Part shown: piece after piece, positions 5,199 through 23,414 of the stretch
Numbering within the stretch: position 1 is the first letter of the stretch
Layout: the number at the start of each line of letters is the position of its first letter
From: Rhodocytophaga aerolata
GTDB taxonomy: Bacteria > Bacteroidota > Bacteroidia > Cytophagales > 172606-1
DNA length: 64,000 bases
Assembly: GCF_030503435.1 (NCBI RefSeq)
Contig: NZ_JAUKPO010000003.1
Span: forward strand, 124,001-188,000
Direction of reading: 5' to 3'
Position numbers and translations under genes: made by a program
The notes under the pieces: generated by a model
Databases searched by the model: none
What the model was told of the DNA's origin: nothing
What the model saw: the letters and a program-made list of their open reading frames with translations, nothing else

Positions 5199-5260
5199 TC
5201 TTTTATGAGCCATCAGGCAACTAGCAGAACCAATCAATAACCAAAACCTACCTATTTTTT

Positions 5261-6682: not shown

Positions 6683-6713
6683 AAAGCATATTCTTCAGTT
6701 TAGTCAAATAAAA

Positions 6714-6742
6714 AAGCAGGAACACGAAAAATGTTCCTGCTT
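6714..6742 (-). terminator. Terminator closing the leftward 6.7-18.3 kb gene series
   Basis: Perfect 11-bp arms (6714-6724 and 6732-6742) with a 7-base loop. On the minus strand the hairpin is followed by a run of six T. It lies 22 bases past the stop of the small secreted protein gene. Confidence 0.85.
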
Positions 6743-6763
6743 ACAAATATAGTGAAGGTAAAG

Positions 6764-7201
6764 TTAGCGCTTAAAACCGAGTACAGCTGCAGCACAGCTT
6801 TCTTTCTGATTTTCAAAGGAGAACGTTAAATAATACACCCCTGTAGAAGCACATTTATAGCTTACCCCTGAGTAAAACTTTTTACTGGCCGGGTCTTGGT
6901 TAGTGGCTACCAGTTTTCTATTCGAATCGTACAAATTCAATAGTACACCTTTTAGCTCTAACTCTTTATTTCCCAAGGTAATCATATAATTAGAATCTTT
7001 GCTGAAGATATATGGAAACTCTAATTTATCTTTAGCCCCGTTCTCACCGTCAATTTTATAACTTTTTAGGAAAGCATACCCTTGTGGAAGCTTCTCTATT
7101 AGTTTATTTGTATAAGTATCTGCATCGCACTGAGCTGAAGCCACGGAAGCATTCGTAAGTATGGCTGCAAACACAATCAAAGTAAATAGTATTTTTTTCA
7201 T
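6764..7201 (-). CDS. Small secreted protein of unknown function
   Basis: A 145-residue protein with a clear Sec signal peptide cleaved near VASAQ at residue 24. The mature part is mostly beta-strand by eye, with phrases such as KGVLLNLYDSNRK and GVYYLTFSFEN that recall a small beta-sandwich binding domain of the periplasm or outer surface. Two cysteines (YKCAST, ESCAAA) and one near the mature N-terminus could form disulfides. I do not recognise the family. It is the last gene of the leftward series, 20 bases after the lipoprotein gene and followed by a strong terminator. Confidence 0.72.
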   Translation of the reverse strand: MKKILFTLIVFAAILTNASVASAQCDADTYTNKLIEKLPQGYAFLKSYKIDGENGAKDKLEFPYIFSKDSNYMITLGNKELELKGVLLNLYDSNRKLVATNQDPASKKFYSGVSYKCASTGVYYLTFSFENQKESCAAAVLGFKR

Positions 7202-7221
7202 ATCTGTATTGATAACTAATT

Positions 7222-8115
7222 TTAGCTGATTATTTTATTACGTATAGCACTAGCTGCTGCCTGAATACTTTTCAAATCTTCAGGTGTCATGTTTATTTTC
7301 TTGGTGCTATTATCTACTACCATCAATACGCCATCTACTTCTTTCATGGTGGATTCTTGATACGTATAAGTAACTTCTACTTTTTCGAATTGCTTCTGTA
7401 GATCAGTTAAATCGGCAATCAATGACTGGATATTTGCATCCTGGTTATAAAAAGATAAAAGTAGTAACAGTTGATCAAGAATTACTTTTTGCTCTCCGAT
7501 CCGCTCTTTAAAAGTCTGACTTGGGTATTTGTTTTCTACGGCACAGGTTAAATGCAAAGCTTCTAGCCATCCACCAGTCAGAATCAAAATACTTAAGTTA
7601 GATCTTTCCTGCTCTTGTAAATGCTTATTAATCTTTTCAAAGTTTGTTGTAGTAATCAGCAATAAAGAATCTAAATTATTACTGTTTGTAGCTAAACTTC
7701 TGATGGTATTAAAATCGAAAAACTGTCCAATACTTAACCCATCCGCCGTGGTACGTACAGCATCCAGATAATGTAGTGCATCCTGATTCTGACTATAGAT
7801 ATTGGCATATCCCAAATCTGTACCATAAATGCCTAAATTCAATGCTCTTTTGTAATTGGTATTGTAGTTACTCAGATTGTTAGTTGAATTGAGTACATTT
7901 TTATCATATTTTACTCCCGAATTTTTTATCAAAGAAGAGATTTCTAAAGGAGACGGTATAGATTGAATAATATCTCCCAATACCTCTTTAGAAACAGGAG
8001 GCGTCTGTACCTTTGCGTTGTCTAAGCTGTCGAGAAAAGCTTGTTCACTTGGTTGTTTATTATTATCACAGGCTACTAAGAGCAATGCAATAAAACCTAA
8101 GTATACTTTATTCAT
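7222..8115 (-). CDS. Putative lipoprotein, helical, unknown function
   Basis: The 297-residue product begins with a lipoprotein signal (LLLVAC, Cys at residue 16), followed by a polar linker and a mostly helical body without further membrane segments. The segment LGIYGTDLGYANIYSQNQ near residue 95 looks conserved in kind, but I cannot assign a family. It sits between the TerB/ABCG transporter gene (46 bases upstream) and the small secreted protein, all co-directional. The context suggests an envelope accessory of the transporter or of the upstream signalling genes. Confidence 0.75.
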   Translation of the reverse strand: MNKVYLGFIALLLVACDNNKQPSEQAFLDSLDNAKVQTPPVSKEVLGDIIQSIPSPLEISSLIKNSGVKYDKNVLNSTNNLSNYNTNYKRALNLGIYGTDLGYANIYSQNQDALHYLDAVRTTADGLSIGQFFDFNTIRSLATNSNNLDSLLLITTTNFEKINKHLQEQERSNLSILILTGGWLEALHLTCAVENKYPSQTFKERIGEQKVILDQLLLLLSFYNQDANIQSLIADLTDLQKQFEKVEVTYTYQESTMKEVDGVLMVVDNSTKKINMTPEDLKSIQAAASAIRNKIIS

Positions 8116-8161
8116 GATATTAGATTAATTTAGCTGCTTTATTCTGAATTAGTTTATGTAA

Positions 8162-11100
8162 TTAATTAGTGGCCACCCGGCTTTTTTTGATTTTTATCTC
8201 TTGCCATGTACTCATTATCTTATTCTTTACCTGAGTTAGGTATGTAGTTGCAAAGTCAAATTTGATCCGGCCAAGTATGGATAAGGCACCTTTAAATGCT
8301 TCAAAGTATAACGTAACATACAATAGTCCTGTTAGTATCCAGACAACCATCAAATTGAAAGCAAAAGTGCTCATATACATTCCGCCCATATGTTTAGTAG
8401 GTGCCAGGAAATGTGCTCTATAATCTAACTTTCCGGCTATGTTTGTAGGATCTGTATATACTGGGTCTATTTGTTGGATAAGCTTTCCTTCGTATTCGAT
8501 AATCCGATTTTTAGTGCTTGTATTTTTCATAAAATCTGCTAGAGATTCATTGTAATACAAGTTTTTATAAGCTGTTAAGTTATATTCCGGATTAGCAGAT
8601 TTATGTTCTATCAATCTTTCCTTTTTATAATCTGCGTCATTAAATTGCTTAATATAGCTTTGCTTTAACGTTTCAAGATAAAAGCTAACTTTATCTGCTG
8701 CTCTTTCATCAAATCCATGCGTTGTTAAAGCAGAATTTACATCTATACTTAATCCTCGTTTATTTACTTCAGCATTTATCTCTTCACGGATTACCTTCAG
8801 ATCTTTTGCCAAAATAGTTTGGATGGAGTCGGTTTTATCTTTTGCATGAAACTTAGATCTTTCCAGCCTCTCTGATAATTCAGGAATCAGATATGTATAT
8901 TTGAAGTATGCTTTACTTTGAATTTTTTCCAGGTCATAATAGGAAACCTGGTAAGGATTATTTTTATATTGCTCAATGGCAAGCGCCTCAAAACCCCACC
9001 TGGAGGCTATAAAGTCAGCTATTATTGGCACTTTGCCTTTTGTACTGATCATATCATTCAGCTTATCGAAGCTAAACATTACTCCACTCAGCACTATCTG
9101 AGGAATTAATATTAACGGAATCGTAATGTATACAGTAACTACAGAGTTGAATGAAGCAGATATATTTAAACCCAGTATATTAGCAAAACACGACATGGTG
9201 AACAGAACCATCCAATAACTCAAGGTCATTCCTTTAACTTCTAGAATCCAATTGCCAATTAGGACAAAACTCAAAGTTTGAATTGCAGACAGCACAAAGA
9301 GAATAATCAGTTTAGATGATAAATAGCTGGTTCTGCTCAGATTCAGAAATGACTCTCTTTTTTGTATTTTCTTATCTCTGATAATTTCCTCTGCACTTAC
9401 GGTTAGACCCATAAACAGAGCTACCAGTATGGCTACTAATATATAAGCAGGTATATTATCGTTATATCGGTAGATATAGCCCGAAGAATCAGGATCATTT
9501 TTATAGCGGATTACTAATGCCAGGATGGCTGCTAGTACAGGAGCCTGCAATAAGTTTATCAGCATATACTGCACGTTACTTATTTTAGACAAAAAGTCTC
9601 TTACTGTAAAAATGACTGTTTGTTTAAACCTTGAAGGCAGATTTAAAGCTTTAGGAGGGTTTTCTTTGACTAGCGTGACCTCTTCAAGCTTAAAATTTTG
9701 TAAATATCGCTCATTCCATTGGGGAGGCGTTACTTTTCTCTTATTTGTGAACTGACCATACTCATCTACCACTTTGGCTTCAATGATATTGAATATCTGT
9801 TCAGGATTTACATTGCCGCAAGTATGACACTGACCTTTATCACTGTCTACCTGGTTAGTGGCTTTCTTAAAATAAATTACTGATTCTACCGGATTGCCAT
9901 AATAGATCGGGTACCCACCTGTATCCAACAAGAATAATTTATCAAACATCTTAAATATGTCTGACGATGGCTGGTGAATGACTACGAAAATAAGTTTGCC
10001 TTTTAGCGAAAGTTCTTTTAAAAGGTCTATTACATTTTCTGAATCTCTGGAAGATAAGCCTGATGTAGGTTCGTCAACAAACATTACTGCAGGTTCCCGG
10101 ATTAATTCCAGGGCTATATTCAACCGTTTCCGCTGACCACCGCTTATTTTTTTATTCAGAACATTGCCAACTTTTAAATCTTTAATATGCTCTAGTCCAA
10201 GGCTAGCTAGCACGTTAATTACCGCTTTGTGTAACTCTTCTTCAGTCAAATGAGCAAAACAAAGTTTGGCATTGTAGTATAAATTTTCATACACACTTAA
10301 CTCTTCGATGAGTAAGTCATCTTGGGCTACATAGCCAAATACCCCCTGCACTTCATCTTTCTGGGTGTGTACATTTATCCCATTAATTAAAATTTCACCT
10401 TTGGAAGGATTTTCGATGCCTGCCAGAACGTTTAATAACGTTGTTTTACCGGCTCCACTTCCACCCATGATTCCAATAAGTTTCCCGGGGCCTTCCGAAA
10501 TATGGACATCTCTTAAGCCTATGGCACCATTAGGAAACTTAAATTCGAGGCTTTTAACAGTAAACGAAAGGTTTTTTGTCTTCAGATTACTTAAAAAGAA
10601 GCTTACTACGTCACTATAGTATATGGGCGAACTCTTAGGGGTTTTAATAGTACTTCCATTAGAGAACAGATATACCTGATACGGTTTTAGCAACAACCCA
10701 TTCAATTGTAATTCTTCATCTCCATTATATCGGACAAAGTATAAGTCTACACTTTTAACACGCAAGAATACAATTTGCCCATGCAAGTGGTCCAGCAATA
10801 AATGTTTGGCTTGCCCAGGATGCACAGCAGACTTACTGTCCGCAAGTAATATATCTTCAAAGTCAGTAAGTGTGTTTGTATTTTCATGAAGCACAAACTT
10901 TTCTATGATTTGAAAATCCTCTTTGGCAATGTTAAATACAGTAGAAACCGTATCTATAATACTCATCCGCTGAGGAGTAAAATTCTTATCAGAGCTTACT
11001 AATTCCAGCAAGCGGATAAGTACAACTACTTTCTGCTTTTGAGTAAGAGTCTTATTAATTTTCTTGCAAATAGCCAGTGTCTTAACTGAATCCTTTACAG

Positions 11101-11305
11101 AAGTAAGCTTGGCTTCTCCTTTATCTTCATTACCATATCCTGCAAACTGGTCGTAAAGTTCAACGTATTCCTTAACCGAATCTTGGTCTAACTCCTGCCT
11201 AAAAAATTGAATAACATACTTCCTTTCCACCTCAGTAACTCCACCGTCCTGTTTAGTTATTATAGCAAAAAGTTGAGTTAGCGCTTTAAGTATCTCCTCA
11301 CTCAT
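8162..11305 (-). CDS. TerB-like/ABCG-type fused ABC transporter
   Basis: A 1047-residue inner-membrane ABC protein with ATPase and permease in one chain, ABCG order. Residues 1-135 are helical and resemble the TerB (tellurite-resistance, acidic metal-binding) fold. Residues 150-235 form a beta-rich region that could be FHA-like. The ATPase follows, with Walker A GGSGAGKTT at 281-289, signature SGGQRKR and Walker B VMFVDEPTSGLSS. A CHTCG pair lies near residue 495. The C-terminal half has about six membrane segments with a large extracytoplasmic insert between about residues 760 and 960. The substrate is unknown. It follows the Sia-type genes in the same direction after a 166-base gap. Confidence 0.88.
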   Translation of the reverse strand: MSEEILKALTQLFAIITKQDGGVTEVERKYVIQFFRQELDQDSVKEYVELYDQFAGYGNEDKGEAKLTSVKDSVKTLAICKKINKTLTQKQKVVVLIRLLELVSSDKNFTPQRMSIIDTVSTVFNIAKEDFQIIEKFVLHENTNTLTDFEDILLADSKSAVHPGQAKHLLLDHLHGQIVFLRVKSVDLYFVRYNGDEELQLNGLLLKPYQVYLFSNGSTIKTPKSSPIYYSDVVSFFLSNLKTKNLSFTVKSLEFKFPNGAIGLRDVHISEGPGKLIGIMGGSGAGKTTLLNVLAGIENPSKGEILINGINVHTQKDEVQGVFGYVAQDDLLIEELSVYENLYYNAKLCFAHLTEEELHKAVINVLASLGLEHIKDLKVGNVLNKKISGGQRKRLNIALELIREPAVMFVDEPTSGLSSRDSENVIDLLKELSLKGKLIFVVIHQPSSDIFKMFDKLFLLDTGGYPIYYGNPVESVIYFKKATNQVDSDKGQCHTCGNVNPEQIFNIIEAKVVDEYGQFTNKRKVTPPQWNERYLQNFKLEEVTLVKENPPKALNLPSRFKQTVIFTVRDFLSKISNVQYMLINLLQAPVLAAILALVIRYKNDPDSSGYIYRYNDNIPAYILVAILVALFMGLTVSAEEIIRDKKIQKRESFLNLSRTSYLSSKLIILFVLSAIQTLSFVLIGNWILEVKGMTLSYWMVLFTMSCFANILGLNISASFNSVVTVYITIPLILIPQIVLSGVMFSFDKLNDMISTKGKVPIIADFIASRWGFEALAIEQYKNNPYQVSYYDLEKIQSKAYFKYTYLIPELSERLERSKFHAKDKTDSIQTILAKDLKVIREEINAEVNKRGLSIDVNSALTTHGFDERAADKVSFYLETLKQSYIKQFNDADYKKERLIEHKSANPEYNLTAYKNLYYNESLADFMKNTSTKNRIIEYEGKLIQQIDPVYTDPTNIAGKLDYRAHFLAPTKHMGGMYMSTFAFNLMVVWILTGLLYVTLYFEAFKGALSILGRIKFDFATTYLTQVKNKIMSTWQEIKIKKSRVATN

Positions 11306-11471
11306 AGTATATTTTTCAATGTGCTTATTTTCATATAAGCTTCTTTTACTAAAACTTAATTACAAAATCAGAAGGCAGGCAAAACCCGTTCTTATTCAAA
11401 GAAAATACTTATTAGCGGCGAAATAAATTGAAATAGTTTGCTTATGCCACGTATGTATTGAATTGCAAAAA

Positions 11472-11861
11472 TCAGTAAGTTTTGAATTCAAAGGGTACTT
11501 CTACCAGTTCTGAAAACTCAGTGCCTGCTTCTTCCATATCTTCATCATCTTCATGAAAATACCAGGAAATCGTAGTGCCGGGTATAGATTCCAGCTTAGA
11601 AAGAATATCTAAAATGAGTTTAGAAGAGGCTGTATTGAAATATTCCAGCTTAAAAGTAAAATTAGTTTTTGGCTTAGGAGCACTTCCATACGCATCTAGC
11701 CACTGTAAGACAGGCTTGTAAAATTCGGCTGTATCCTCAGGTAATGACCGGCCAGAAATTTCAAAAATTCCGTTTGATTGATCTAATATTATTTTAGGAG
11801 TATCTTCCGTTCCTTCTAAGTTAATAATCTGCATTGGGGGTAATAATTTAATGTTTGACAA
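11472..11861 (-). CDS. SiaC-family (DUF1987) phosphorylatable regulator
   Basis: A 129-residue soluble protein with the DUF1987 hallmarks: ISGRSLPEDTAEFYKPVLQW near residue 35 and the YFNTASSKLILDIL segment at 74-87. That segment corresponds to the site phosphorylated in Pseudomonas SiaC, so Thr77 or the adjacent serines are candidate phosphosites. In Pseudomonas, SiaB phosphorylates SiaC, SiaA dephosphorylates it, and unphosphorylated SiaC activates the diguanylate cyclase SiaD. Here the SiaB-like kinase is 18 bases upstream and a SiaA-like phosphatase precedes that. No SiaD is nearby, so its output target is open. Confidence 0.88.
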   Translation of the reverse strand: MSNIKLLPPMQIINLEGTEDTPKIILDQSNGIFEISGRSLPEDTAEFYKPVLQWLDAYGSAPKPKTNFTFKLEYFNTASSKLILDILSKLESIPGTTISWYFHEDDEDMEEAGTEFSELVEVPFEFKTY

Positions 11862-11879
11862 TTGATACTGATGGAATAA

Positions 11880-12434
11880 TTATTCGTTTGTGTTGACTCT
11901 GGGGATAGTAGTCTTCAAAGAGAAAAATGATATTTTATCATTGATTGGCTGAAAATCAAATTCAAGTTTCTGGCCAGATTTTCTTGCCATATCTACAAAT
12001 CCTAAACCGGCACCACCTTTATCTGACAGATCGCCATTTCTAATGATATCTTTATACAAAGCTTTTAACCCTTCTTTATCCAGGCTATTTATTTGCTCCA
12101 GCTTATTGTTAAGGCCTCCAACTTTATCGTTGTTGATAGGATTACCTGTTGTAATAATGTATTCATTTGCATGTTTACCTATCATGAAAATGGCCGAGTT
12201 TTTCATATTCTCTTCAAGGCTTATTTCATCTGCATGCTTACAAATGTTCTGAAGGCACTCTACCATTACGTTGAACACTTTGCGCTTAATGTTGGACTCT
12301 TCACCCACAGATTCCATGTTGCGTTCGGCCATTGCTAAAACAGACTTGGTAATTTCCTGAGTAAATTCTCCTTCATAAACGAGGATCAGATTTTGTTGCA
12401 ACATTGTTTTATGCAACTCATAAATGTATTTCAT
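11880..12434 (-). CDS. SiaB-family protein kinase (GHKL-type ATPase, DUF6272)
   Basis: The 184-residue product resembles the SiaB-type kinase of the SiaABC partner switch, a GHKL ATPase that phosphorylates SiaC. Visible features are the N-box-like segment NVMVECLQNICKHAD near residue 60 and the glycine-rich lid SDKGGAGLGFVDMARKSG near residue 143. There is no membrane segment. It lies directly between the SpoIIE phosphatase gene and the SiaC gene, an arrangement matching siaA-siaB-siaC order. An anti-sigma-factor kinase of the RsbW type is the alternative, but no sigma factor is nearby. Confidence 0.85.
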   Translation of the reverse strand: MKYIYELHKTMLQQNLILVYEGEFTQEITKSVLAMAERNMESVGEESNIKRKVFNVMVECLQNICKHADEISLEENMKNSAIFMIGKHANEYIITTGNPINNDKVGGLNNKLEQINSLDKEGLKALYKDIIRNGDLSDKGGAGLGFVDMARKSGQKLEFDFQPINDKISFFSLKTTIPRVNTNE

Positions 12435-12490
12435 GTGCTTAATTGATTGATTTTAACATTAGTATAGCTAGTAATCCACTACTTTTTGGG

Positions 12491-15400
12491 TTAGAATTTT
12501 ATACCGATCATTAGAACATCATCGGTTTGTTTCTCTTCGCCTTTCCAGGCTTCAAATTCCTGATCAAACACTTTGTGAACAGTTTCTATGTTGTTATGTG
12601 AATGCTCAAGAATGATTTCTCGGATTCGTTTAGGTGAAAACTTACGATTATCTGGTCCTCCAAACTGATCAGGGAATCCATCTGAACAGAAGTACACAGC
12701 ATCGCCTTCCGAGATGGTTAGGGTAGTAGTAGTGAAACTAGTGCGGGATTTATATTGCCCACCACCAATTGGGAATTTATCTCCTTTAACTTCAGTAAGT
12801 TCACCTCCATGCAAGAAATAAAGCGGACGATGCGCTCCTGCGTATTGTAGCGTATTTGTTTTTAAATTGATTTTACAAAGAGCGATGTCCATTCCATCAC
12901 GTGTCGATGAATCTTCGCTGTCTTGACGTAGGGTTTGAGTAACGCCTTTGTCCAGCATATCCAAAACTTCACCTGGTTCTGCTACATCTTTATTATTAAC
13001 AATGTTGTTTAACAAGAAATAGCCTATTAAAGAGATAAGAGCACCTGGTACGCCATGCCCAGTACAGTCTACGGCTGCTATATACATATCATCGCCTCTC
13101 TGCAAGAACCAAGGAAAATCTCCGCTGACTACATCTCTAGGTTTATATAGGATAAATGACTCAGGAAAAATTTCTTTGATAATTTCATTATTTGGCAGAA
13201 TAGCTCCCTGAATACGTTTAGCATAATTAATACTTTCTGTAATCTTCTTATTCTTGCTCTGAACTTCTAACTCAATTTGTTTCCGATCGGTAATGTCATG
13301 CGAAACTAGAAGCACAGACTCTATAAGATTCTGCTCATTGTACTCAGGAATGGCATTAATTTGCATTACCCGGTCGCCAATCAGAGATGGGAAATCCATC
13401 TCGGTGCTAAGTTTCTCCTTATTCGTCATTACTTCCTTGAGGATAGCACTCCAGGCAGTTACAACTGACTCATTCAGACTTACCTCTTCCAACGATTTAC
13501 TAATAAATTCATCTTTGCTATACCCAGTATACGATTCAATAATTGGATTTATATAAAACACTTTTCCTTCTTTATTGAACCGGGTAATCAAGTCTGGAGA
13601 GTTCTCAGATAAAGCCTGCATTTGGCCACGCATCCTGGCTTCCTGCTCGGCTCTTCTCCGTTCAGTAATATCGCGAGAATTTAAAACTATGCCTTCAATA
13701 GCCGGGTCAGATAGCAAATTGGTTCCTGTAGCCTCCAGCCATATGCGCTCACCATTTTTCCGGGAATAGCTGAACTGGATGGTTAATTTCTGTTCCGGAT
13801 TCTCCATCAACTCCTGGAACATTCTATCTACCGACTCTACGCCTTGTTCATTTACATAGATAATGTCATTTAAACCTATTAATTCCTCTTGCTTATATCC
13901 CAATATTTTTTCTACCGATGGGCTTACATAACGTACGCGCCTGTCTTGCTCATAAATGGTTATTACTTCAGATGCATTCTCCAGCAATACCTGCATTTTT
14001 TTCTGTGCACGGTTTACCTGCTCTATCTGATCTTCCAGTGCATGATTGGTGCGTTTCAGCTCTTCCTGTGTACTTTGCATTTCTTCTGCATTCTGGCGCA
14101 ATATTTCTTGCTGCTCCTGTAATTCTTCACTCTGTTTTTGAGACTTTTCCAGAAGGACTCTGGTAGTTTCGTTTACTTTAATGTTAAATATCGTACGGGC
14201 CAGAATCTCACTTATTTCATTTACAAAGCGGACGTTTCTAGAGCTAAACTTTTCGAAACCTGCTAATTCTAATACCCCAAATACCTCTTTATCGCTACCA
14301 ATTACTGTAATTAAAGGTACAATCAGAATACATTTTGGTTTTCTATCACCTAACAAACCAGAAGTTATTGTAACATAATTATCAGGTACTTCTGTACGGA
14401 GGATGGTATCTTGCTCAATGGCTGCCTGTCCAACTAATCCTTCTGCAAATTTAAATTTGGCAGAAAGGTATTTCTTTTTATGGTAGGCATAACTGGCCGT
14501 CATCTCTATAAATCTGTTCTCCTCTTCCTCATCATTCACCACATAGAAAGCTCCCTGGATAGCATCTACTTTTTTAGTAAGGTATGCTACTACACGTTCG
14601 CTAAGTTCTGCCAAATTATTAGTAGACCGTAATATATCCCCTATCTCAGCAACACCAGTCACAATCCAGTTTTGTTCTTCATCCCGTTTGGCAGATTCCT
14701 GAATGCTATCCCGCATATTAATCAATGACAAACCCAGAATATCATTGTTACTCATCGGTTTGAACTCTGCAGCAAAATCACCTTCACCAATTTTGTGTGC
14801 AAAACTGGCAGTCTTTTTCAATCCTTCTACCAGATTATTGACTGTATCTGCCATTTCACCGATCTCATCGTTGCTGTTTTTCTCTAATTTTTCAGGCAAT
14901 ATACCCTCTCCTAGTAAAGACATAGTCTGTTTAAGGGATAGCAAGGGATTAATCAAGAATCTTGAAAAAATGAATCCTACAGCTAACGCACCTGCTAAAA
15001 CTACCAAGCCGGCAATAATAAAATAATTGCGTAATTGATTAACAGAAGCATATACCTCTTCACTGTCAACTTTTACAACCATTCCCCAGTTTATACCCTG
15101 TATATGATGCCAGGCGGCTAATACAGCCTTCCCTCTGTAATCAGTATCAAACCCAATATTTGACTTACCTTTTACAGCCTGATGTAGCGCATATTCATCT
15201 TTATAACTGACTTCTTTTAATGCTGACTCCGGATTTAGGCGTAAAGGATTTATATAAATAACTTTAGAGCCACTTATCTTCGCTAATATGATTTCACCGG
15301 TATTGCCTAAGCCTATGGTATCGTTAGCCAGGCTGTATACTGGCATCATATTTACTTCAAAAACAATAACACCTTGCTGGCTTCCTTCAGTAGTGGTAAT

Positions 15401-15916
15401 AGGGGCAGCTATCCACTGATAGTAATTTTTACCTTGCTGAAAAATATTTCCATAATGCAACCCTGCCAACCCTTTCTCAATACTGGTTTTATGTGTATCC
15501 TGTAATGTCTCGCCTACTGTCTGTCTGGTAGCAGAATTATCATGGATATAGAGCACTTTGCCATCCGTGTCAGTTAGATAGATATTAGCCAAGCCATACA
15601 TTTGCCGGATTGGTGCCAAGGTAGCATCCAGACTTTCTGTACTAGAACCTGACGGTTTCTGTCCTAGGGTCTGATACATGTTTTTTACCACAGGAAGTTC
15701 TTGGGTAATGTAAATAGCAGAGGCGATTTGATTGAAAAATGTCTCTACTTTCTGAGCTTTTAGATTAGCTATTACCTGTACCGATTCAAAATATCTTTTC
15801 TCTACTGATTTTCTATTTAAATCATACGAAATGAAACTTACGATCAGTATAGCGATAAGTACTAGGGTAAGCACTAAGGCGGTGATCTTACTGCCAATTC
15901 TTATTTTTTTCAACAT
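12491..15916 (-). CDS. Membrane sensor phosphatase: Cache, HAMP, GAF, two PAS, SpoIIE (SiaA-like)
   Basis: This 1141-residue inner-membrane receptor has its output in a PP2C-type SpoIIE phosphatase. Order by eye: membrane helix 10-30, periplasmic double-Cache region to about 290, second helix near 300-320, HAMP to about 375, a GAF domain about 430-575, a coiled coil, PAS domains near 645-760 and 765-880, then SpoIIE from about 890. The metal-binding acidic residues are in VVSGDF, AAVDCTGHGVPG and QTDDVLMIG. The usual GDFYW reads GDFPW here. It probably dephosphorylates the SiaC-like protein encoded downstream, making ligand sensing the input of the switch. Confidence 0.9.
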   Translation of the reverse strand: MLKKIRIGSKITALVLTLVLIAILIVSFISYDLNRKSVEKRYFESVQVIANLKAQKVETFFNQIASAIYITQELPVVKNMYQTLGQKPSGSSTESLDATLAPIRQMYGLANIYLTDTDGKVLYIHDNSATRQTVGETLQDTHKTSIEKGLAGLHYGNIFQQGKNYYQWIAAPITTTEGSQQGVIVFEVNMMPVYSLANDTIGLGNTGEIILAKISGSKVIYINPLRLNPESALKEVSYKDEYALHQAVKGKSNIGFDTDYRGKAVLAAWHHIQGINWGMVVKVDSEEVYASVNQLRNYFIIAGLVVLAGALAVGFIFSRFLINPLLSLKQTMSLLGEGILPEKLEKNSNDEIGEMADTVNNLVEGLKKTASFAHKIGEGDFAAEFKPMSNNDILGLSLINMRDSIQESAKRDEEQNWIVTGVAEIGDILRSTNNLAELSERVVAYLTKKVDAIQGAFYVVNDEEEENRFIEMTASYAYHKKKYLSAKFKFAEGLVGQAAIEQDTILRTEVPDNYVTITSGLLGDRKPKCILIVPLITVIGSDKEVFGVLELAGFEKFSSRNVRFVNEISEILARTIFNIKVNETTRVLLEKSQKQSEELQEQQEILRQNAEEMQSTQEELKRTNHALEDQIEQVNRAQKKMQVLLENASEVITIYEQDRRVRYVSPSVEKILGYKQEELIGLNDIIYVNEQGVESVDRMFQELMENPEQKLTIQFSYSRKNGERIWLEATGTNLLSDPAIEGIVLNSRDITERRRAEQEARMRGQMQALSENSPDLITRFNKEGKVFYINPIIESYTGYSKDEFISKSLEEVSLNESVVTAWSAILKEVMTNKEKLSTEMDFPSLIGDRVMQINAIPEYNEQNLIESVLLVSHDITDRKQIELEVQSKNKKITESINYAKRIQGAILPNNEIIKEIFPESFILYKPRDVVSGDFPWFLQRGDDMYIAAVDCTGHGVPGALISLIGYFLLNNIVNNKDVAEPGEVLDMLDKGVTQTLRQDSEDSSTRDGMDIALCKINLKTNTLQYAGAHRPLYFLHGGELTEVKGDKFPIGGGQYKSRTSFTTTTLTISEGDAVYFCSDGFPDQFGGPDNRKFSPKRIREIILEHSHNNIETVHKVFDQEFEAWKGEEKQTDDVLMIGIKF

Positions 15917-15976
15917 AGTTCCTAGGGTATGCTATTAATTAAGTATCAAACTTCCGGTATTCTCTATGATTTATAA

Positions 15977-16789
15977 TTAGGCTAATATTTCTTCTTGAGG
16001 CTGAGCGGCCAGTAGTTCTACCAGCAAAGGAGAAATCTGGTCAAAAAAATCTTCATCAGATTTTGTAAAAGGTTTAAAGGAGGCTACTTCAATTACACCT
16101 ATAACTGTATTTTCTGATAAAATAGGTGCTATTATTAAATGTTTAGGAGAAGAATTGCCTAAGCCTGAAATAATGGTTACATACCCATCAGGAACTGTGC
16201 TAATATTAATAAGCTTTCCTTCTTTAGCTACTTGTCCGGTTAGCCCTTCGCCAAACTCATACTGAATAGATTTGCTTTCAGCCATGAAATAAGCATAGCT
16301 GGCACACATTTCTACTACACGTTTTGCATCTTTATGCTTGGCTTGAAAAATGGCTCCCTGGCAAGCTTCCAACTCATTACAAATGTTGCTAAGTACTTTT
16401 TCTAGTTTAACAGTTGCATCCGGTATCGCTAAATCAAGTTTATTTTGAATCGATTTTACTCTTTTATCGATTGCAACTACCTCTGTATGGGAATGCTGTG
16501 AAGAAAAGTCAGTTTTTATATCTTCATGCTGATGCAGATGCACAGCTGTATTTTGCCTGTTCAGCAACAGGAACAGAACAGCTGATACGCCTAGAAAAAT
16601 TTCTATGCCTACAACCATAAAAATAGGCTTTACTGTTTGTTCAACTAACTCAATCTGTTGACTCTCGCGGATTTGTAAGGCACCTGTTATTTGTGCAGAA
16701 GCTTGATATAAATAATAAGTTACGCCAACAATACCTAGTAGAAAAAGAATAACTGCTATATTACCTAGCTTTTTGTAAAATGAGTTCAT
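15977..16789 (-). CDS. Membrane-anchored GAF domain protein
   Basis: A 270-residue protein with two N-terminal membrane helices (about 11-30 and 52-73) enclosing a short periplasmic loop, followed by a cytoplasmic GAF domain from about residue 110 to 262. Its GAF closely resembles the one in the adjacent phosphatase: both contain MCASYAY or MTASYAY, FGEGLTGQ or FAEGLVGQ, and PDGYVTIISGL or PDNYVTITSGL. The two probably derive from a duplication and may bind the same ligand. No catalytic domain is attached, so it is likely an accessory sensor or dimerisation partner. It lies 60 bases upstream of the phosphatase gene. Confidence 0.85.
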   Translation of the reverse strand: MNSFYKKLGNIAVILFLLGIVGVTYYLYQASAQITGALQIRESQQIELVEQTVKPIFMVVGIEIFLGVSAVLFLLLNRQNTAVHLHQHEDIKTDFSSQHSHTEVVAIDKRVKSIQNKLDLAIPDATVKLEKVLSNICNELEACQGAIFQAKHKDAKRVVEMCASYAYFMAESKSIQYEFGEGLTGQVAKEGKLINISTVPDGYVTIISGLGNSSPKHLIIAPILSENTVIGVIEVASFKPFTKSDEDFFDQISPLLVELLAAQPQEEILA

Positions 16790-16852
16790 ATTGTTCAGTT
16801 ATGTAAGCAATGAATAAATCCCTGTTGTTATAGGGTTTATGCGATGTTATTT

Positions 16853-17455
16853 TTATGTACTTTGTTTGTACACTTTATCTAGTTCCTGTAAAAAAGCAAT
16901 AATCTGGGAAACGGTGAGCACATGGTCAATTTGCGTAAGCTTTATTGCTGCTACTGGCATGGTATCAATCATACACTCGCTGGGTTCCTGTACAATAGTT
17001 AAACCTCCCCGGTCTTTAATCTTTTTCATTCCCATAGCCCCATCTTTATTAGCTCCGGTCAACAAAATGCCAATCAGCTTGTTTTTGTATACATAGGCGG
17101 CTGTTTCCAGAGTTATATCTATTGAGGGTCTTGAATTATTTACCATTTCTTCGGTAGATAAAGAAAAATGATTTCCAAGCTCAATACACAGATGATAGTT
17201 AGCCGGAGCCAGATATATTTTGCCCTTTTTAATGGAATCTTTGTCTTCAGGCTCATAAAGTGAAATATTGCTTTTAATATTTAAAGCTTCCACAAAGCCA
17301 TGCCTTACATGTTTCAGTCTATGTAAGCACATAATAATAGGTAATTCAAAGTCTTTGGGCAGATTAGACAGTATTTTACTAATCACCTGAAAACTTCCAG
17401 CTGACCCTCCTATTACTATAGCTTTATATTGATTATTTAATTTGAACTGACTCAT
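16853..17455 (-). CDS. CheB-type methylesterase domain without receiver
   Basis: A 200-residue stand-alone CheB catalytic domain, the enzyme that removes methyl groups from glutamates of chemoreceptors. The serine is in VIGGSAGS (Ser18), the histidine in CLHR (His45), and the aspartate in TGANKDGAMGM near residue 140. The usual N-terminal receiver domain is missing, so control must come from another protein. The cheR-like gene lies 38 bases upstream and no methyl-accepting receptor is encoded nearby. Receiver-less CheB/CheR pairs are known in non-chemotaxis signalling of Bacteroidota, often with hybrid kinases. Confidence 0.9.
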   Translation of the reverse strand: MSQFKLNNQYKAIVIGGSAGSFQVISKILSNLPKDFELPIIMCLHRLKHVRHGFVEALNIKSNISLYEPEDKDSIKKGKIYLAPANYHLCIELGNHFSLSTEEMVNNSRPSIDITLETAAYVYKNKLIGILLTGANKDGAMGMKKIKDRGGLTIVQEPSECMIDTMPVAAIKLTQIDHVLTVSQIIAFLQELDKVYKQST

Positions 17456-17493
17456 GTATCTTGCTTACATAGAAGTGAATATTCTTCAACCGC

Positions 17494-18318
17494 TTAATCT
17501 TTAATCTTCTTATAAATCTTTTCTTCGTTGTTAGCGACGATGAACTTATTAGCAATTTCACACCATATCAACGACTCCTTTGAACCCACGATCAGATATC
17601 CATATTTGAATAAGCTTTCGTGAAACATCTTGAGAACATTGTTTTGTAGAGCCTGATTAAAATAAATCATTACATTTCTGCACAGAATAAGGTCAAATTT
17701 GGAAAAGGCCATACTAGCTACCAGGTTATGTTCCCTGAAGGATACATGCTCTACCAGAGATTTATCCATAATGGCTTTCCCATTTTCTTCCTTATAATAT
17801 TTTTCCAGAGTGGTGGTTCCTTGAAAACGTAGGTAGTTCTTTTGGTTAAGCTCCATATTCTTCATGGAATACACACCTGACCTTGCTTTTTGAAGAATAT
17901 CTGTATCAATGTCAGTGGCTACTATTTTGGTTTTATCAAGAATACCCATCTCCTTGAGTACAATGGCCATTGAAAAAACCTCTTCACCCGAAGAACACCC
18001 GGCATGCCAGATACTGATGTTGTTGTGGTTCAACATGATATTTGGCAAAATATGGTCCCTCAACTCCCGCCAGAAAGAAGGATCTCTGAACATCTCCGTT
18101 ACATTGACAGTAACTTCTGAAACGAATTCTTTGAAAAATCTTGGCTCCTCGGTAAGCTTTTTAATCAGCACATCTACGGAGGCCAGTTTATACATTTCTA
18201 GTATTCTCTGTATGCGTCTTTTAAAGGAAGACATAGCATAGTTGGAAAAATCATAGTTATATTTTTCCTTAATTACTTCTGTCAACTTTCTTAACTCTGC
18301 TATTTCAATTTCCTGCAT
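17494..18318 (-). CDS. CheR-type protein-glutamate methyltransferase
   Basis: A 274-residue CheR homologue that uses SAM to methylate glutamates on receptor proteins. The N-terminal helical domain contains SSFKRRIQRILE, and the catalytic domain has FRDPSFW, the SAM motif WHAGCSSGEEVFSMAI near residue 105, DLILCRNVMIYF near residue 210 and a GSKESL near the end. The longest frame begins at a TTG at 18387, but the ATG at 18318 opens the conserved fold, so I chose it. It is the first gene of the leftward series. No MCP is present in the window, so its substrate may be one of the neighbouring sensors. Confidence 0.92.
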   Translation of the reverse strand: MQEIEIAELRKLTEVIKEKYNYDFSNYAMSSFKRRIQRILEMYKLASVDVLIKKLTEEPRFFKEFVSEVTVNVTEMFRDPSFWRELRDHILPNIMLNHNNISIWHAGCSSGEEVFSMAIVLKEMGILDKTKIVATDIDTDILQKARSGVYSMKNMELNQKNYLRFQGTTTLEKYYKEENGKAIMDKSLVEHVSFREHNLVASMAFSKFDLILCRNVMIYFNQALQNNVLKMFHESLFKYGYLIVGSKESLIWCEIANKFIVANNEEKIYKKIKD

Positions 18319-18387
18319 AGTCTGTGGATATGATATTTTCCTCTGGAATAGCTCTATTTTAAAAAATTCACAGCTGTTGCCTACCAA

Positions 18388-19064
18388 CTATTGCGCTGCT
18401 CACCGTCTGGCTGTGTTATAGTCTACTTATATAGCTATGCAAGTTAATTCAAAATGGATACACTCAAATTGTGTTATGGTGTTGTGGAGGTATGCTATTG
18501 TAATTTATAGTAGCATTTTGTCATTTTACTACGAAAAATTTGTCAGAACTTTTATTTATCTACCTGGCAGAAAGCCTATAGCTATTTACAATAAAGTATC
18601 GCCCTTTGATGAATGAAAGATAAGCTGCTTGCAAATACTGATTGTAGCTCAAATTCTTCTCTAAATATAAGCAGTTAAAATAGGGAAAATATAGCTTAAA
18701 GAGTGCCTATACAACGTATCTAAAGCAAAGCTGTGTTAAATTTCACATCTATTTATCAGCCTATTGCAGGATAGCCGTTTACTGAGGAAATGCCAAAATG
18801 AGATAAACTTTGTGCAGATGCTTCGCTCTTTGGAAAGTTACTTTTATGAGTAATATAAACTGGCTATTTTATAATTTCTTCTATATCTATCCTCCGTGCG
18901 AGTATTAAGTATACTACGGCTGTTAAGTACAGCAAATCCATTCGCACTGACAGAATGTCACCTAAACAACAATTATTCACCCTTGGCACAACCCTTGATA
19001 AACACCAATAGTACTTATCACGTATGATTAAATAAAGCATTTAGAACTTAAAACTCAATAAATC
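18388..19064. other. Intergenic region between divergent cheR-like and dnaK genes
   Basis: About 680 bases, AT-rich, with no open frame of note. It must hold the promoter of the leftward signalling series and that of dnaK. I found no exact TAnnTTTG element and no CIRCE-like repeat. A sigma-54-like sequence is noted separately at 18984-18998. Confidence 0.5.
18984..18998 (+). promoter_or_regulatory. Sigma-54-like minus-24/minus-12 sequence upstream of dnaK
   Basis: TGGCAC followed five bases later by TTGA. The minus-24 half matches the sigma-54 consensus fully, while the minus-12 half has GA instead of GC. It lies about 70 bases before the dnaK start on the same strand. One mismatch in a critical position makes this a weak call. 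Confidence 0.2.
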
Positions 19065-20984
19065 ATGGGAAAAATTATTGGAATTGACTTGGGTACTACC
19101 AACTCTTGCGTGGCTGTAATGGAAGGAAACGAGCCTGTTGTAATTCCTAACAGCGAGGGTAGAAGGGTGACCCCATCCATTGTTGCATTTTTAGATAATG
19201 GGGAGCGGAAGGTGGGCGATCCTGCCAAGCGTCAGGCAGTGACTAATCCTAGAAATACTATACAATCTATCAAACGCTTTATGGGTAGAAAATACTCTGA
19301 AGTGTCTAATGAACTAAGAAATATAGCTTATACTGTTGAAAAGGGCACCAATGACACGCCCCGTGTAAAGATTGGCGACCGTTTATATACTCCTCAGGAA
19401 ATTTCAGCGATGATTCTTCAGAAGATGAAATCTACTGCTGAAGATTACTTAGGAACTACTGTAACAGAAGCTGTTATTACTGTACCTGCCTACTTTAATG
19501 ATGCTGAACGTCAGGCTACGAAAGAGGCCGGCCAGATTGCAGGTTTAGATGTAAAACGTATCATCAACGAGCCTACAGCCGCTGCTTTAGCGTATGGTAT
19601 GGACAAGAAAGGCAAGGAAATGAAAATTGCCGTATTTGACCTTGGTGGCGGTACATTTGATATTTCTATTTTGGAGTTAGGTGATGGAGTGTTCGAAGTA
19701 AAATCTACCGATGGCGATACTCACTTAGGCGGTGATGACTTTGACCAGAAAATCATCGACTGGCTGGCACAGGAATTCTTGAATGATCATCGCATCGATT
19801 TGCGTAAAGATCCAATGGCTTTGCAACGCTTGAAAGAAGCTGCTGAAAAAGCTAAAATAGAACTTTCAAGTTCTACACAGACAGAGATAAACCTGCCATA
19901 TATTATGCCGGTAGATGGTATTCCTCAACACTTAGTGAAGTCGCTGAGCCGCGCTAAATTTGAGCAATTGTGCGATGATTTGATTAAGCGTACACTCGAA
20001 CCATGCCGCCGGGCAATGAAAAATGCCGGAATGAGCAATTCCGATATAGATGAAGTAATCTTGGTTGGTGGCTCTACCCGTATTCCTAGAATACAGGAAG
20101 AAGTAGAAAAATTCTTCGGTAAGAAACCATCTAAAGGAGTAAACCCAGATGAAGTGGTGGCTGTTGGTGCTGCTATTCAAGGTGGTGTATTAACAGGTGA
20201 GGTAAAAGATGTATTGTTGCTAGATGTAACTCCGCTTTCTTTAGGTATTGAAACTATGGGTGGCGTATTTACTAAACTGATAGAATCGAATACAACTATT
20301 CCTACTAAGAAATCTGAAACTTTCTCCACAGCTTCTGATAATCAGCCGTCTGTAGAAATACATGTACTTCAGGGCGAGCGGGCAATGGCCAGAGACAACC
20401 GTACTATCGGACGTTTCCACCTGGATGGTATTCCACCGGCCCCAAGAGGCGTACCTCAAATTGAAGTAACCTTTGACATTGATGCCAATGGTATATTACA
20501 TGTATCTGCAAAAGATAAAGGTACTGGCAAAGAACAGAAAATCAGAATTGAGGCTTCTTCTGGCTTGACAGATGCTGAAATTGAGAAAATGCGTAATGAA
20601 GCTAAAGCCAACGAGCAGGCAGATAGAGAAGAAAAAGAACGTATTGATAAGTTTAATACAGCCGACTCCTTAATCTTCCAGACAGAAAAACAATTGAAAG
20701 AATATGGAGATAAGCTTTCTGCCGGAAACAAAACTGCGATAGAAAGTGCACTAGCCGACTTAAGAAAAGCTCATGGTGCAAAAGATTTTGCAGGAATTGA
20801 TTCAGCAATGAACACACTGAATACTGCATGGCAAAATGCTTCTCAGGAGATGTATAATGCTGCCGGAGCTGCAGGTGGTCCGACTAATGCCGGCCCTACC
20901 GATGGTGGCGGAACTGCTAACAATACTGGAGGTAAGGATGATGTAACGGATGTAGACTACGAAGAAGTAGAAAACAGAAAATAA
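19065..20984 (+). CDS. dnaK: Molecular chaperone DnaK (Hsp70)
   Basis: This cytoplasmic ATP-dependent chaperone (639 residues) has the normal length. It begins with [17 protein letters not shown], has the phosphate loops [10 protein letters not shown] near residue 195 and [13 protein letters not shown] near residue 340, the linker [14 protein letters not shown] near residue 385, then the substrate-binding beta domain and helical lid. A Gly/Ala/Thr-rich stretch precedes the C-terminal DVDYEEV, the EEVD-like end. dnaJ and grpE are not adjacent. It is a single-gene unit: a long 5' intergenic region and a strong terminator 17 bases after the stop. Confidence 0.99.
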
Positions 20985-21095: not shown

Positions 21096-21476
21096 CTATT
21101 TTTTGCTGGTAGCTTTTCTTCGACTTAACTTATAGCATTTTATATCTGCTTCCTTTACTTCACGTATATCAAAAATTACTGTTTCGCTTTTATAATCTAT
21201 ACCTAGTTCATCTAAAATGTGTTTTACTTTTAAATAGTAGTAAGCACCGGCTTTGTTTGTTACAAATGTATCAGCATCTGCTTCTTTTGCCACAATCAGG
21301 TATAAATTACTATCCTTTTCATCTTCGTCATTAACTGCCAGTTTAAAATATTTGTTCTTCTCTAAGCCCAGCACTTTTATAGCACCTGTTGAGAAACCCA
21401 TTTTTCCTGTTTTGTGTACAGTAGCCTTAACAACGCCTACATTATCCTTGGGTGTGAGGAACTTAAATTTTATCAT
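21096..21476 (-). CDS. Small basic cytoplasmic protein, unknown function
   Basis: A 126-residue protein with no signal or membrane segment and a Lys/Arg-rich C-terminus. I do not recognise the family. The first 40 residues (KATVHKTGKMGFSTGAIKVLGL) resemble a short DNA-binding or swapped-hairpin beta segment, but this is only an impression. It is monocistronic, convergent with dnaK. A very good promoter lies only 4 bases before the ATG, so the transcript may be leaderless, or translation may begin at Met26. Confidence 0.7.
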   Translation of the reverse strand: MIKFKFLTPKDNVGVVKATVHKTGKMGFSTGAIKVLGLEKNKYFKLAVNDEDEKDSNLYLIVAKEADADTFVTNKAGAYYYLKVKHILDELGIDYKSETVIFDIREVKEADIKCYKLSRRKATSKK

Positions 21477-21722: not shown

Positions 21723-23414
21723 TTACTGTACTGCTGCTGTAGTTACAGTAGATTTAAAATCTACTCTTTCTAAACTTAGATTATTCATTGGGTTAGCTTC
21801 TAAGCCTGTTACATTAGGCTGAGCCATCCGAAGCACTTCATCATAATATAAAACTATTACAGGCGCTTCGGTCATTACAATTTGATCCATTAGATTGTAC
21901 ATTTCATATCTATCAAAAGGATCATTATCCACTACCTGGGCTTTTTCAAACAACTCATCAAACTTCTCATTTTTGAAACGGGTTTTGTTTGGACCTGCCG
22001 GAGACATATTCTTGCTATAGAACATTGACAAATAATTTTCTGCATCCGGATAATCGCCTAACCAGGAAGCTCTAAACAAATGCACTCTGCCATTATCTAC
22101 TAGTTCCTGATGCGTAGAGTTATTATTGATATCAATTTTTACGTTAATACCTAAGCTAGACCACTGTTTCTGCAAATATTCGCAAAGCTCATTATGAAGG
22201 TTATTAGAGTTTAAGGTAACTTCTGGGAAACCTTTTCCTTGTGGATACCCTGCTTCTTTCAATAACTGCTGAGCCTTTTCAAGATTGTATGTATATCCTT
22301 TTACTTTTGTGCTATCAAACGACGGAAGTACTACTGGCACCATACCCGATACACCAGGTATACCTAATTTGTTTCTTAAAAAGCCTACTAGTTCTACTTT
22401 ATTAATTGCATAATTCATAGCCTGTCTTACACGTCTATCTAGGAAAGGATGCTTTTTATCTTTATACAAAGAAGGGTCCATCTGAAATCCAAGGTACTCA
22501 GTGTTCAGGTAAGGGACTTTACTAACCTGGTATTTGGCTGCAAATTCTTTTTTCACCGAGCCATCGCGGTTCAACACTAGATCTCTGGAAGCTTCTTCAA
22601 TACCAGAAACAAAATCTAATTTTCCTTGCTCAAATGTTCTGAATGCCTGATTTTTATCTGAGATAAACGATACCTGCACAGCATCCAGATAAGGCAAATT
22701 ATTTCCGGAAGCATCTTTTCGCCAATAGTTGTTATTTCTCAGCAATGTTAAGCTTTCGTTTTCAGTCCATTGTTTGAAAGTAAAAGGACCTGTTCCTACT
22801 GGTTTTGTTCTGAAATCTTTACCATACTTTTCTACGGCTTCTTTAGGAACCACATACGTGTAAGGCATACTTAAAATCTGCAATATTGGAGGAAAAGGCT
22901 TATTCAGATATATTTTAAGCGTATAATCATCCACTGCTTTGAAAGATGTATCAGAAACACTGCCATCCACATTTTTAAGGATTTTGTCATTAAAAATCCA
23001 GGCACCAGTGCTGGAAGTAGCTGGGTCTAGAATTCTTTTAAAGCTATAAACAAAATCTTCTGCTTTTAACTCTCTTCCTTTCCCATCCGGAAATACTTCA
23101 CTGTCATGAAAATGGATGCCTTTCCTGATGTGAAATGTATACGTTTTATTATCTTCTGAAGCGTTCCAGGTATCTACTAAGCAGGGTACCACATTTAGGT
23201 GATGGTCTAACTCAAAAAGTCCATTGTAGATCTGATTCGCCGCCCAGATATTTGCCTGGTTGCGTGCAAAAGCAGGGTCCAGAGAGGTAAGGCCTTCAGC
23301 CTGGTTGTATCTGAATACTTTTTTGGCTTCATTATTCTCTCTTTTATCGCTATCCCCTCCACAGGATGAGAGCAAAGCTACAAGAGCAAATAACACAGTA
23401 AATTGTCTTAACAT
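21723..23414 (-). CDS. Oligopeptide/dipeptide ABC transporter substrate-binding lipoprotein
   Basis: A 563-residue family 5 extracellular solute-binding protein (OppA/DppA type) that delivers peptides to an inner-membrane ABC permease. The N-terminus is a lipoprotein signal (LLSSCGGD, Cys18). Family features include the EGLTSLDPAFARNQANIWAANQ opening region, YTFHIRKGIHFHD near residue 95, the KPVGTGPFTFKQW segment near residue 205 and DRRVRQAMNYAINK near residue 325. No permease or ATPase gene is adjacent, so it works with partners encoded elsewhere. It is a single-gene unit with its own terminator. Confidence 0.93.
   Translation of the reverse strand: MLRQFTVLFALVALLSSCGGDSDKRENNEAKKVFRYNQAEGLTSLDPAFARNQANIWAANQIYNGLFELDHHLNVVPCLVDTWNASEDNKTYTFHIRKGIHFHDSEVFPDGKGRELKAEDFVYSFKRILDPATSSTGAWIFNDKILKNVDGSVSDTSFKAVDDYTLKIYLNKPFPPILQILSMPYTYVVPKEAVEKYGKDFRTKPVGTGPFTFKQWTENESLTLLRNNNYWRKDASGNNLPYLDAVQVSFISDKNQAFRTFEQGKLDFVSGIEEASRDLVLNRDGSVKKEFAAKYQVSKVPYLNTEYLGFQMDPSLYKDKKHPFLDRRVRQAMNYAINKVELVGFLRNKLGIPGVSGMVPVVLPSFDSTKVKGYTYNLEKAQQLLKEAGYPQGKGFPEVTLNSNNLHNELCEYLQKQWSSLGINVKIDINNNSTHQELVDNGRVHLFRASWLGDYPDAENYLSMFYSKNMSPAGPNKTRFKNEKFDELFEKAQVVDNDPFDRYEMYNLMDQIVMTEAPVIVLYYDEVLRMAQPNVTGLEANPMNNLSLERVDFKSTVTTAAVQ

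Follow-up and report, generated by a model that had tools for sequence, protein, structure and literature searches.

A Sia-type partner switch in a conserved nine-gene unit of Cytophagales, with an ABCG-type half transporter as its candidate output

We analysed a stretch of 64,000 nucleotides of Rhodocytophaga aerolata (contig NZ_JAUKPO010000003.1, positions 124,001 to 188,000, hereafter the window), and in particular a conserved unit of nine co-directional genes on its minus strand (approximately 6714-18318): cheR, cheB, mGAF, siaA, siaB, siaC, abc, lipo and sec. The first gene, cheR (17494..18318), encodes a protein-glutamate methyltransferase with no fused domains (Pfam CheR, E 1.7e-46), and cheB (16853..17455) encodes a protein of 200 residues made of the methylesterase domain alone, in which no receiver was matched (Pfam CheB, E 6.9e-51). 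They are followed by mGAF (15977..16789), whose product is hydrophobic in its N-terminal part and carries a single GAF domain (GAF_2, E 3.1e-12), and by siaA (12491..15916), whose product is a SiaA-like sensor phosphatase of Cache-HAMP-GAF-PAS-PAS-SpoIIE/PP2C architecture (SpoIIE, E 7.6e-19, together with PAS, GAF and HAMP). The next two genes encode a SiaB-family kinase (11880..12434; Pfam DUF6272, E 1.1e-45) and a SiaC-family phosphoprotein (11472..11834; Pfam SiaC, PF09345, E 1.8e-39). The Pfam matches of these six genes lie above the curated cut-offs, except for the Cache domain of the sensor (34.8 bits, under its 45-bit cut-off). The likelier starts are ATG 18318 for cheR, which has a further open start upstream (TTG 18387), and ATG 11834 for siaC. 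An earlier examination of the letters and open reading frames, the sequence-only reading, had named these six genes, including the receiver-less CheB and the DUF1987 protein that is SiaC, in this order and on one strand, and the Pfam matches agree with it. The extent that it gave, 11472-18318, does hold the six genes but is too short, since the unit reaches to about 6714 with three further genes.

The first of these three, abc (8162..11305, minus strand, as are all features below unless stated), encodes a protein of 1047 residues with Pfam matches to TerB, ABC_tran and ABC2_membrane. A regulatory N-terminus is followed by one ATPase domain carrying the ATPase motifs and then by one ABC-2 membrane domain, which is the layout of an ABCG-type half transporter. 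The ATPase residues Lys287, Ser388, Asp411 and Glu412 are invariant (71/71; this and the other residue-column counts include duplicate loci of the same genomes). The N-terminus itself comprises a TerB-like helical domain (residues 1-148, 10862..11305) and a predicted FHA-fold domain (residues 149-235, 10601..10861). TerB was matched at E <= 0.1 in 32 of 33 transporter N-termini, and AlphaFold, run on the alignment of the 33, predicted that the TerB part is helical and is followed by a beta domain (mean pLDDT 84). In the VIA fold comparison the TerB part reached Z 8.7 to 2h5n and 7.7 to 2ou3, which the tool grades as middling. For the beta domain, Foldseek named FHA in 37 of the 50 listed rows, with a probability mostly near 1 and a best E of 3.7e-3, none being under 0.001; VIA gave Z 7 to 8 (maximum 8.0) against FHA domains, again middling; and a profile search, which also supplied the alignment used here, ranked the FHA domain of MEK1 first at E 0.42. 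Pfam FHA had no match in the transporter N-termini. From these weak-to-middling agreements we judge that the domain probably has the FHA fold; the residues that contact phosphothreonine were not found in it.

Downstream of abc, lipo (7222..8115) encodes a mostly helical lipoprotein of 297 residues, with a family that could not be assigned. The lipobox Cys is kept in 64 of 70 sequences. The protein of the window had no Pfam match at E <= 0.1 (one at 0.27) and no NCBIfam match at 0.01; its model (pLDDT 82) gave no fold match in the PDB at E <= 0.001, the best being E 0.3, and a Pfam search of 34 members returned scattered matches, none in more than two of them. The ninth gene, sec (6764..7201), encodes a small, probably beta-rich secreted protein of 145 residues, with a signal-peptide-like start read from the translation and a Pfam match below threshold only (E 0.017). 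Directly 3' of it lies a terminator-like hairpin of 12 pairs with a T-rich tail (6714..6742), which has the longest stem among the eight terminator-like sites of 6000-19200, a number equal to the chance expectation of 8.0. A promoter scan (59 sites against 46.4 expected) was not used as evidence.

By sequence, the nearest solved structures of SiaA, SiaB and SiaC are those of the Pseudomonas aeruginosa proteins. SiaC matched P. aeruginosa SiaC (6kko/6k4f) at E 1.2e-11, the SiaA phosphatase domain matched 6k4e across the whole PP2C query at E 5.5e-33, and SiaB, searched with a profile from eight sequences, matched 6kko_A at E 1.4e-22. Family scores were 134.6 bits for SiaC in PF09345 (cut-off 24.5) and 186.7 bits for SiaB in the NCBIfam family SiaB_fam_kinase (cut-off 85), and the NCBIfam equivalog cut-offs were reached by none of the three (SiaA 218.5 of 700 bits, SiaB 92.4 of 225, SiaC 77.2 of 150). 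We read them as members of the same families as the Pseudomonas proteins and as different equivalogs, and the SiaABC-type switch seen by the sequence-only reading is present in that sense. In the frame that starts at ATG 11834, the threonine phosphorylated in P. aeruginosa SiaC, Thr68, corresponds in the alignment to a threonine with the identical residue number, and the column holds Thr in 82 and Ser in one of 83 aligned sequences. Glu59, Asn63, Gly141 and Gly145 of SiaB are invariant (84/84), as are five checked Asp of SiaA (74/74), Ser18, His45 and Asp138 of CheB (65/65, by alignment to 3sft) and the checked residues of CheR (67/67), for which the nearest solved CheR is 5ftw (E 3.2e-32). 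Because the checked residues are invariant, SiaA, SiaB, SiaC, CheB and CheR look active, and a Sia-type partner-switch mode of working is likely here. The genome carries one SiaC match and one SiaB match.

We then asked about the output of this switch. In P. aeruginosa, unphosphorylated SiaC is reported to bind and activate the diguanylate cyclase SiaD, and phosphorylation prevents this (PMC8457831). In R. aerolata no match to GGDEF (PF00990) was found among the nine candidates scored, either at the locus or in the genome (9.07 Mb in 202 contigs, estimated 100% complete). Among 118 genomes of the order Cytophagales, chosen by kinship and including that of the window, a single partial GGDEF match occurred in one genome, and SiaC was matched in 77 of the same 118; the same GGDEF search found matches in 8 of 14 control genomes. 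A census of four genomes from 2005 reports, in its available text, no diguanylate cyclases in Bacteroidetes (PMC1183210). Because GGDEF is missing here and occurs in 1 of 118 genomes, while SiaC occurs in 77, these matches indicate that the output of SiaC must be something other than SiaD, and that SiaC in this order does something else. The locus holds the SiaA, SiaB and SiaC families of the SiaABCD system and not its SiaD output. The lack of a GGDEF protein at the locus and the need for another output had both been stated beforehand; the absence extends to the whole genome and to 117 of the 118 genomes of the order, and a GGDEF target elsewhere in the genome, which would have spoken against the claim, was looked for with no match.

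The conservation of the unit points to where this output may lie. A SiaB scan of named genomes, made with an alignment of eight SiaB, was followed up for the best 80 of 540 loci, a choice that favours close relatives and in which some loci come from genomes also present in the set of 118 (L101, L102, L115). All nine genes were found in order in 46 of the 61 loci that had both flanks; additional genes interrupt the series in two of the 46 (L163, L180). These complete units include Marivirga, Fulvivirga, Persicobacter, Thermonema, Microscilla, Nafulsella and Xanthocytophaga. As for the other 15, four lacked only a called secreted protein and three, all Flammeovirga, only a called mGAF, which was counted as a separate open reading frame and may be missed when short or divergent, as in these three; three consisted of siaB-siaC-abc-lipo-sec, one of cheR plus that core, one of mGAF-siaA plus that core, one ran from cheR to siaC without the transporter, and two had siaB-siaC only. 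In one of the last two (L135) a siaA homologue lies further off on the other strand. The core siaB-siaC-abc-lipo-sec was kept without siaA, cheB and mGAF in the stretch in L144, L145, L164 and L170. Where enough downstream DNA was available, abc and lipo followed siaC in 62 of 66 loci and sec in 58 of 66; where the upstream flank sufficed, cheR, cheB and mGAF preceded siaB in 62, 61 and 59 of 68 loci, respectively. As a control, the neighbouring dnaK and the genes at 21096-21476 and 2246-3637 were found in 0 of 61 loci; the control reaches about 10 kb on each side of siaB, so that 21723-23414 was only partly within reach, and 24026 onward and 22-1839 lay beyond it and were not counted. In the family of the window (8 genomes, 7 of them with exactly one SiaC match) the nine genes are colinear in G001, G002, G003 and G005, and the other four are contig-broken (G006 is split), incomplete or the window itself. 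In the order, SiaB of at least 58% identity occurs in 62 of the 118 genomes; the transporter N-terminus is present in 62 of these 62, within 4 kb in 56. The unit is better conserved than the sequence-only reading could know, besides being larger by three genes, and the cheR/cheB/GAF linkage that it proposed to survey is found far beyond this strain. Of the two interrupted units, one (L163:1831-11564) contains extra genes for a protein resembling YfiR/HmsC, for a TonB-dependent receptor and for another HAMP-GAF protein, in which Cache is matched weakly; the other (L180:2156-6528) contains one for a TonB plug protein.

At the level of the class, 170 of 295 genomes had a match to SiaB and 159 had one to the transporter N-terminus (E <= 0.001). 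Outside Cytophagales, siaB and abc are co-directional neighbours in at least 11 genomes and stand tail-to-tail, siaCB beside abc, in at least 14; both are lower bounds, picked by eye among the matches listed. The gene order was confirmed in 10 of the 11 co-directional and 6 of the 14 tail-to-tail genomes, and in the six tail-to-tail loci seen the gene for the lipoprotein shares the strand of abc and precedes it. Moreover, in two loci of different families a single frame (L187:7859-8962 and L188:8525-9649; 367 or 374 residues) joins most of TerB-FHA to a full SiaC domain, and these frames sit between siaC and abc. They cover positions 88-258 and 71-223 of the 263 positions of the TerB-FHA profile (E 1.3e-8 and 7.5e-18). 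For their SiaC domains, in which the phosphosite NTTSS is kept, Pfam gives E 1.3e-36 and 1.1e-28. On this profile evidence, the same kind of module precedes an ABC transporter once and SiaC once in one gene cluster.

According to the reading that we favour, and which we consider fairly probable, the nine genes form a signalling-export unit of Cytophagales in which SiaA and SiaB would set the phosphorylation state of SiaC at Thr68, and SiaC would act on the TerB-FHA module of the adjacent ABCG-type exporter rather than on a diguanylate cyclase. By analogy with SiaC and SiaD, unphosphorylated SiaC would bind and phosphorylation would release it. The exporter would work with the lipoprotein and the secreted protein, and CheR, CheB and mGAF would probably be input or adaptation parts of the sensor. 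The contact between SiaC and the transporter, the sign of its effect and export as the direction of transport are what we infer. The transporter appears to be the best candidate for the SiaC target because of the linkage, the co-occurrence, the loss patterns in which siaBC and abc persist without siaA and cheB, the tail-to-tail pairs and the fusion. This likely output, encoded directly downstream, was overlooked when the SiaABC switch without GGDEF output and its conserved Che/GAF linkage were first, and rightly, recognized. That a partner switch may control an ABC exporter is a new proposal, drawn from linkage, co-occurrence and one kind of fusion.

Several known systems make such a model reasonable. 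SiaABCD of P. aeruginosa has the same PP2C phosphatase, SiaB-family kinase and SiaC with an equivalent threonine. It differs in that SiaD has no counterpart here and no GGDEF was matched in this genome, in that cheR, cheB and mGAF lie upstream and a transporter set downstream of the switch genes here, and in SiaA itself, which here has extra GAF and PAS domains that the Pseudomonas architecture is without. Wsp also places CheR and CheB in a non-flagellar signalling operon; it is a chemosensory pathway adapted by CheR and CheB with an MCP, CheA and a receiver-diguanylate cyclase output, whereas the MCP, CheA and receiver-diguanylate cyclase are absent from this unit. We know of no TerB, SiaA or SiaC parts in the Rv1747 system of Mycobacterium tuberculosis, which involves PknF and Rv2623. 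There, an FHA domain precedes an ABC exporter controlled by Ser/Thr phosphorylation, and phospho-Thr Rv2623 is reported to bind that FHA domain (PMC5549992); the kinase, however, is the Ser/Thr kinase PknF and not SiaB, and the FHA domain reads phosphothreonine. In the Mla phospholipid transporter of Escherichia coli, the small STAS protein MlaB binds MlaF, the ABC ATPase; Thr52 is part of the contact surface, and Thr52Glu weakens the binding (PMC7367683). SiaC has a fold that resembles anti-sigma factor antagonists (PMC7647112) and is described as structurally STAS-related (PMC8457831); its likeness to MlaB is drawn at the level of structure. MlaB differs in having no known phosphorylation and in binding to the ATPase, while here a kinase and a phosphatase are encoded and the proposed dock is TerB-FHA. 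The report on SiaC also suggests that DUF1987 proteins modulate adjacent proteins (PMC8457831). In the open-licence literature, judged by titles and the starts of abstracts, we found no description of SiaABC without SiaD or of SiaC with an ABC transporter.

A number of observations weigh against this proposal. siaB and abc lie on different contigs in 6 of the 62 genomes, no abc follows siaC in 4 of the 66 loci, and L178 also shows none in the 5.3 kb seen. More distant TerB-FHA-ABC paralogues are found away from siaBC, also in the family of the window (G001, G002, G003, G005). The gap between siaC and abc is 166 bases with a weak terminator-like site in it, which makes their co-transcription uncertain. 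ubiE, porT, an SDR gene and a hydrolase of the other flank are also found near the unit in 17-25 of 61 loci, and neighbourhood alone is therefore no proof of function. The FHA assignment has weak E-values behind it, and the Asn that contacts the phosphate is not retained. The TerB-FHA-SiaC fusion occurs in only 2 of 206 partly overlapping loci; neither TerB nor FHA was matched by Pfam in the two proteins at E <= 0.05, only SiaC being called, and the assignment of their TerB-FHA part comes from a custom profile and BLAST at 22-25% identity. Finally, a distance correlation over 54 loci, from which L040, L102 and L115 were left out as duplicates or near-duplicates, gave r 0.45 for SiaC and TerB-FHA against 0.55 for SiaC and CheR; it holds no special signal and was not used. 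In another alignment L116, one of the 33 loci prepared for it, was left out as its start differed.

The role of the CheR/CheB pair can be considered separately, as it is compatible with control of the exporter by SiaC. At this locus the pair is not of the chemosensory kind: the CheB has no receiver, and Pfam found neither an MCP nor CheA among the nine genes. The description of the pair as being without receptors is right for the locus and wrong for the genome, which has five MCPsignal matches in four reading frames. Near each of three MCP clusters in the genome there is a CheR together with a long CheB (346-357 residues); as the clusters have a pair of their own, that of the unit need not serve them. 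An initial view of cheR and cheB as the sole pair of the genome was dropped on finding 12 matches to CheB and 12 to CheR, of which two to CheR are weak. One further short CheB and CheR, 42-44% identical to the pair of the window, are encoded next to a hybrid histidine kinase that contains HAMP and a related GAF domain, both in this genome (L087:5121-10750, a kinase with NIT input) and in G003 (L094:2329-9457, CHASE3 input), and a similar second locus is indicated by similarity only in G005 (L095). This suggests a wider habit of placing CheR/CheB pairs beside HAMP-GAF sensors. In the unit, the mGAF domain is related to the GAF domain of SiaA; inspection of its translation by eye shows two hydrophobic stretches, and of the nine genes mGAF is conserved least, its identity being as low as 48% within the genus. 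We considered that CheR and CheB reversibly methylate SiaA or mGAF, which would make the phosphatase an adapting sensor. Besides the linkage upstream of siaB, the conserved CheR and CheB residues, the separate pairs of the MCP clusters and the second pair beside a HAMP-GAF kinase, a motif like EExx[AS]T in the SiaA coil was in favour, as it occurs in 61 of 74 SiaA and in 32 of 2000 shuffles of the window protein. However, the motif is missing in 11 of the 65 SiaA with cheR and cheB in the locus (present in 54) and is present in 7 of the 9 without; six of these nine have too little upstream DNA to tell, and among the three that truly lack the pair it is kept in L174 and L176 and not in L135. 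Its presence does not follow cheR and cheB, and we discarded it as uninformative with regard to methylation. Methylation of SiaA would thus be argued from linkage, and we hold it as a tentative reading, somewhat short of an even chance. In the same genome, five long open frames (1003-1379 residues; contigs C111, C128, C130, C167, C191) carry CheB and CheR domains together.

A true rival is that SiaC acts on an unlinked target, such as an anti-sigma factor, a histidine kinase or an unknown nucleotide cyclase, the transporter being a co-regulated neighbour. Operon neighbours may be simply co-expressed, and in many relatives SiaB-SiaC pairs are encoded apart from the transporter, G051 and G102 each having 34 or more SiaC matches (34 of 54 and 34 of 56 candidates scored); SiaC would therefore have other targets in those relatives. 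In R. aerolata, however, SiaC and SiaB are each matched once, and co-expression alone can hardly account for the tail-to-tail pairs, the loss patterns and the TerB-FHA-SiaC fusion, so that we consider an unlinked target unlikely here.

Less probable again is that phospho-Thr68 of SiaC is recognized directly by the FHA domain, in the way that the FHA domain of Rv1747 recognizes phospho-Thr of Rv2623; phosphorylation would then recruit SiaC instead of releasing it. The FHA fold of the transporter, the conserved phosphorylatable Thr of SiaC and the Rv1747 precedent would fit. However, the column of the FHA Asn (S-x-N-G-T, by the MEK1 alignment) holds Glu or Asp in 63 of 71 transporters and Asn in one, and the phosphothreonine-contacting Gly-Arg and Ser-x-x-His motifs of FHA domains were not seen by eye. 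In addition, the phosphosite of SiaC is described at the start of a helix, and not in a free peptide (PMC7647112). Direct reading of phosphothreonine appears unlikely because the FHA match is weak and the phosphate-contacting Asn is replaced, and after the column counts we gave a canonical reader only a small chance. We rather expect TerB-FHA to be a protein-protein docking domain, not a reader of phosphopeptides. Finally, that SiaABC here feeds a diguanylate cyclase which is divergent or was missed, a view for which the membership of SiaA, SiaB and SiaC in the P. aeruginosa families could be invoked, is highly improbable in view of the GGDEF counts, their positive controls and the 2005 census given above.

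SiaC-type (DUF1987) proteins are widespread, and the sole proven output that we found in print is a diguanylate cyclase; the conserved operon and the fusion name a concrete alternative target. If SiaC does act on the TerB-FHA module, an ABC transporter would here be controlled by a kinase/phosphatase switch dedicated to it, as was suspected for MlaB, which has no known kinase, and the function of many SiaBC pairs of Bacteroidia would become directly testable. The unit may also show CheR and CheB tuning a PP2C phosphatase. We further speculate that SiaC switches are a general phospho-switch of Bacteroidia, independent of c-di-GMP, with the ABCG exporter reached through TerB-FHA as the ancestral output, and that in Cytophagales a dedicated CheR/CheB pair without receiver also adapts the sensor phosphatase by methylation, so that the exporter would be both adapting and gated by phosphorylation; taken as a whole, this wider scheme is possible and still rather doubtful.

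Other arrangements of these genes were seen in passing. The expansion of SiaBC switches in G051 and G102 is large and unexplained, in an order with GGDEF in 1 of 118 genomes. SiaB and SiaC, kinase and substrate, are fused in one chain in five loci (L053:7774-8739, L197:7558-8601, L198:7695-8684, L199:7021-8010, and L028, which is the same genome place as L053). Two class relatives have siaC-siaB-siaC (L204) and siaB-siaC-siaB-siaC (L205) arrays with no TerB-FHA match in the stretch. One tail-to-tail locus has a SpoIIE phosphatase (L181:10097-13405) with a two-component-regulator beta-propeller and Y_Y_Y front and no Cache-HAMP. In the window, the flank beyond sec holds ubiE, porT/sprT (type IX secretion, NCBIfam NF052311, 204 bits), the SDR gene and the hydrolase mentioned above, at 3787-6016 on the plus strand and 6011-6682 on the minus strand.

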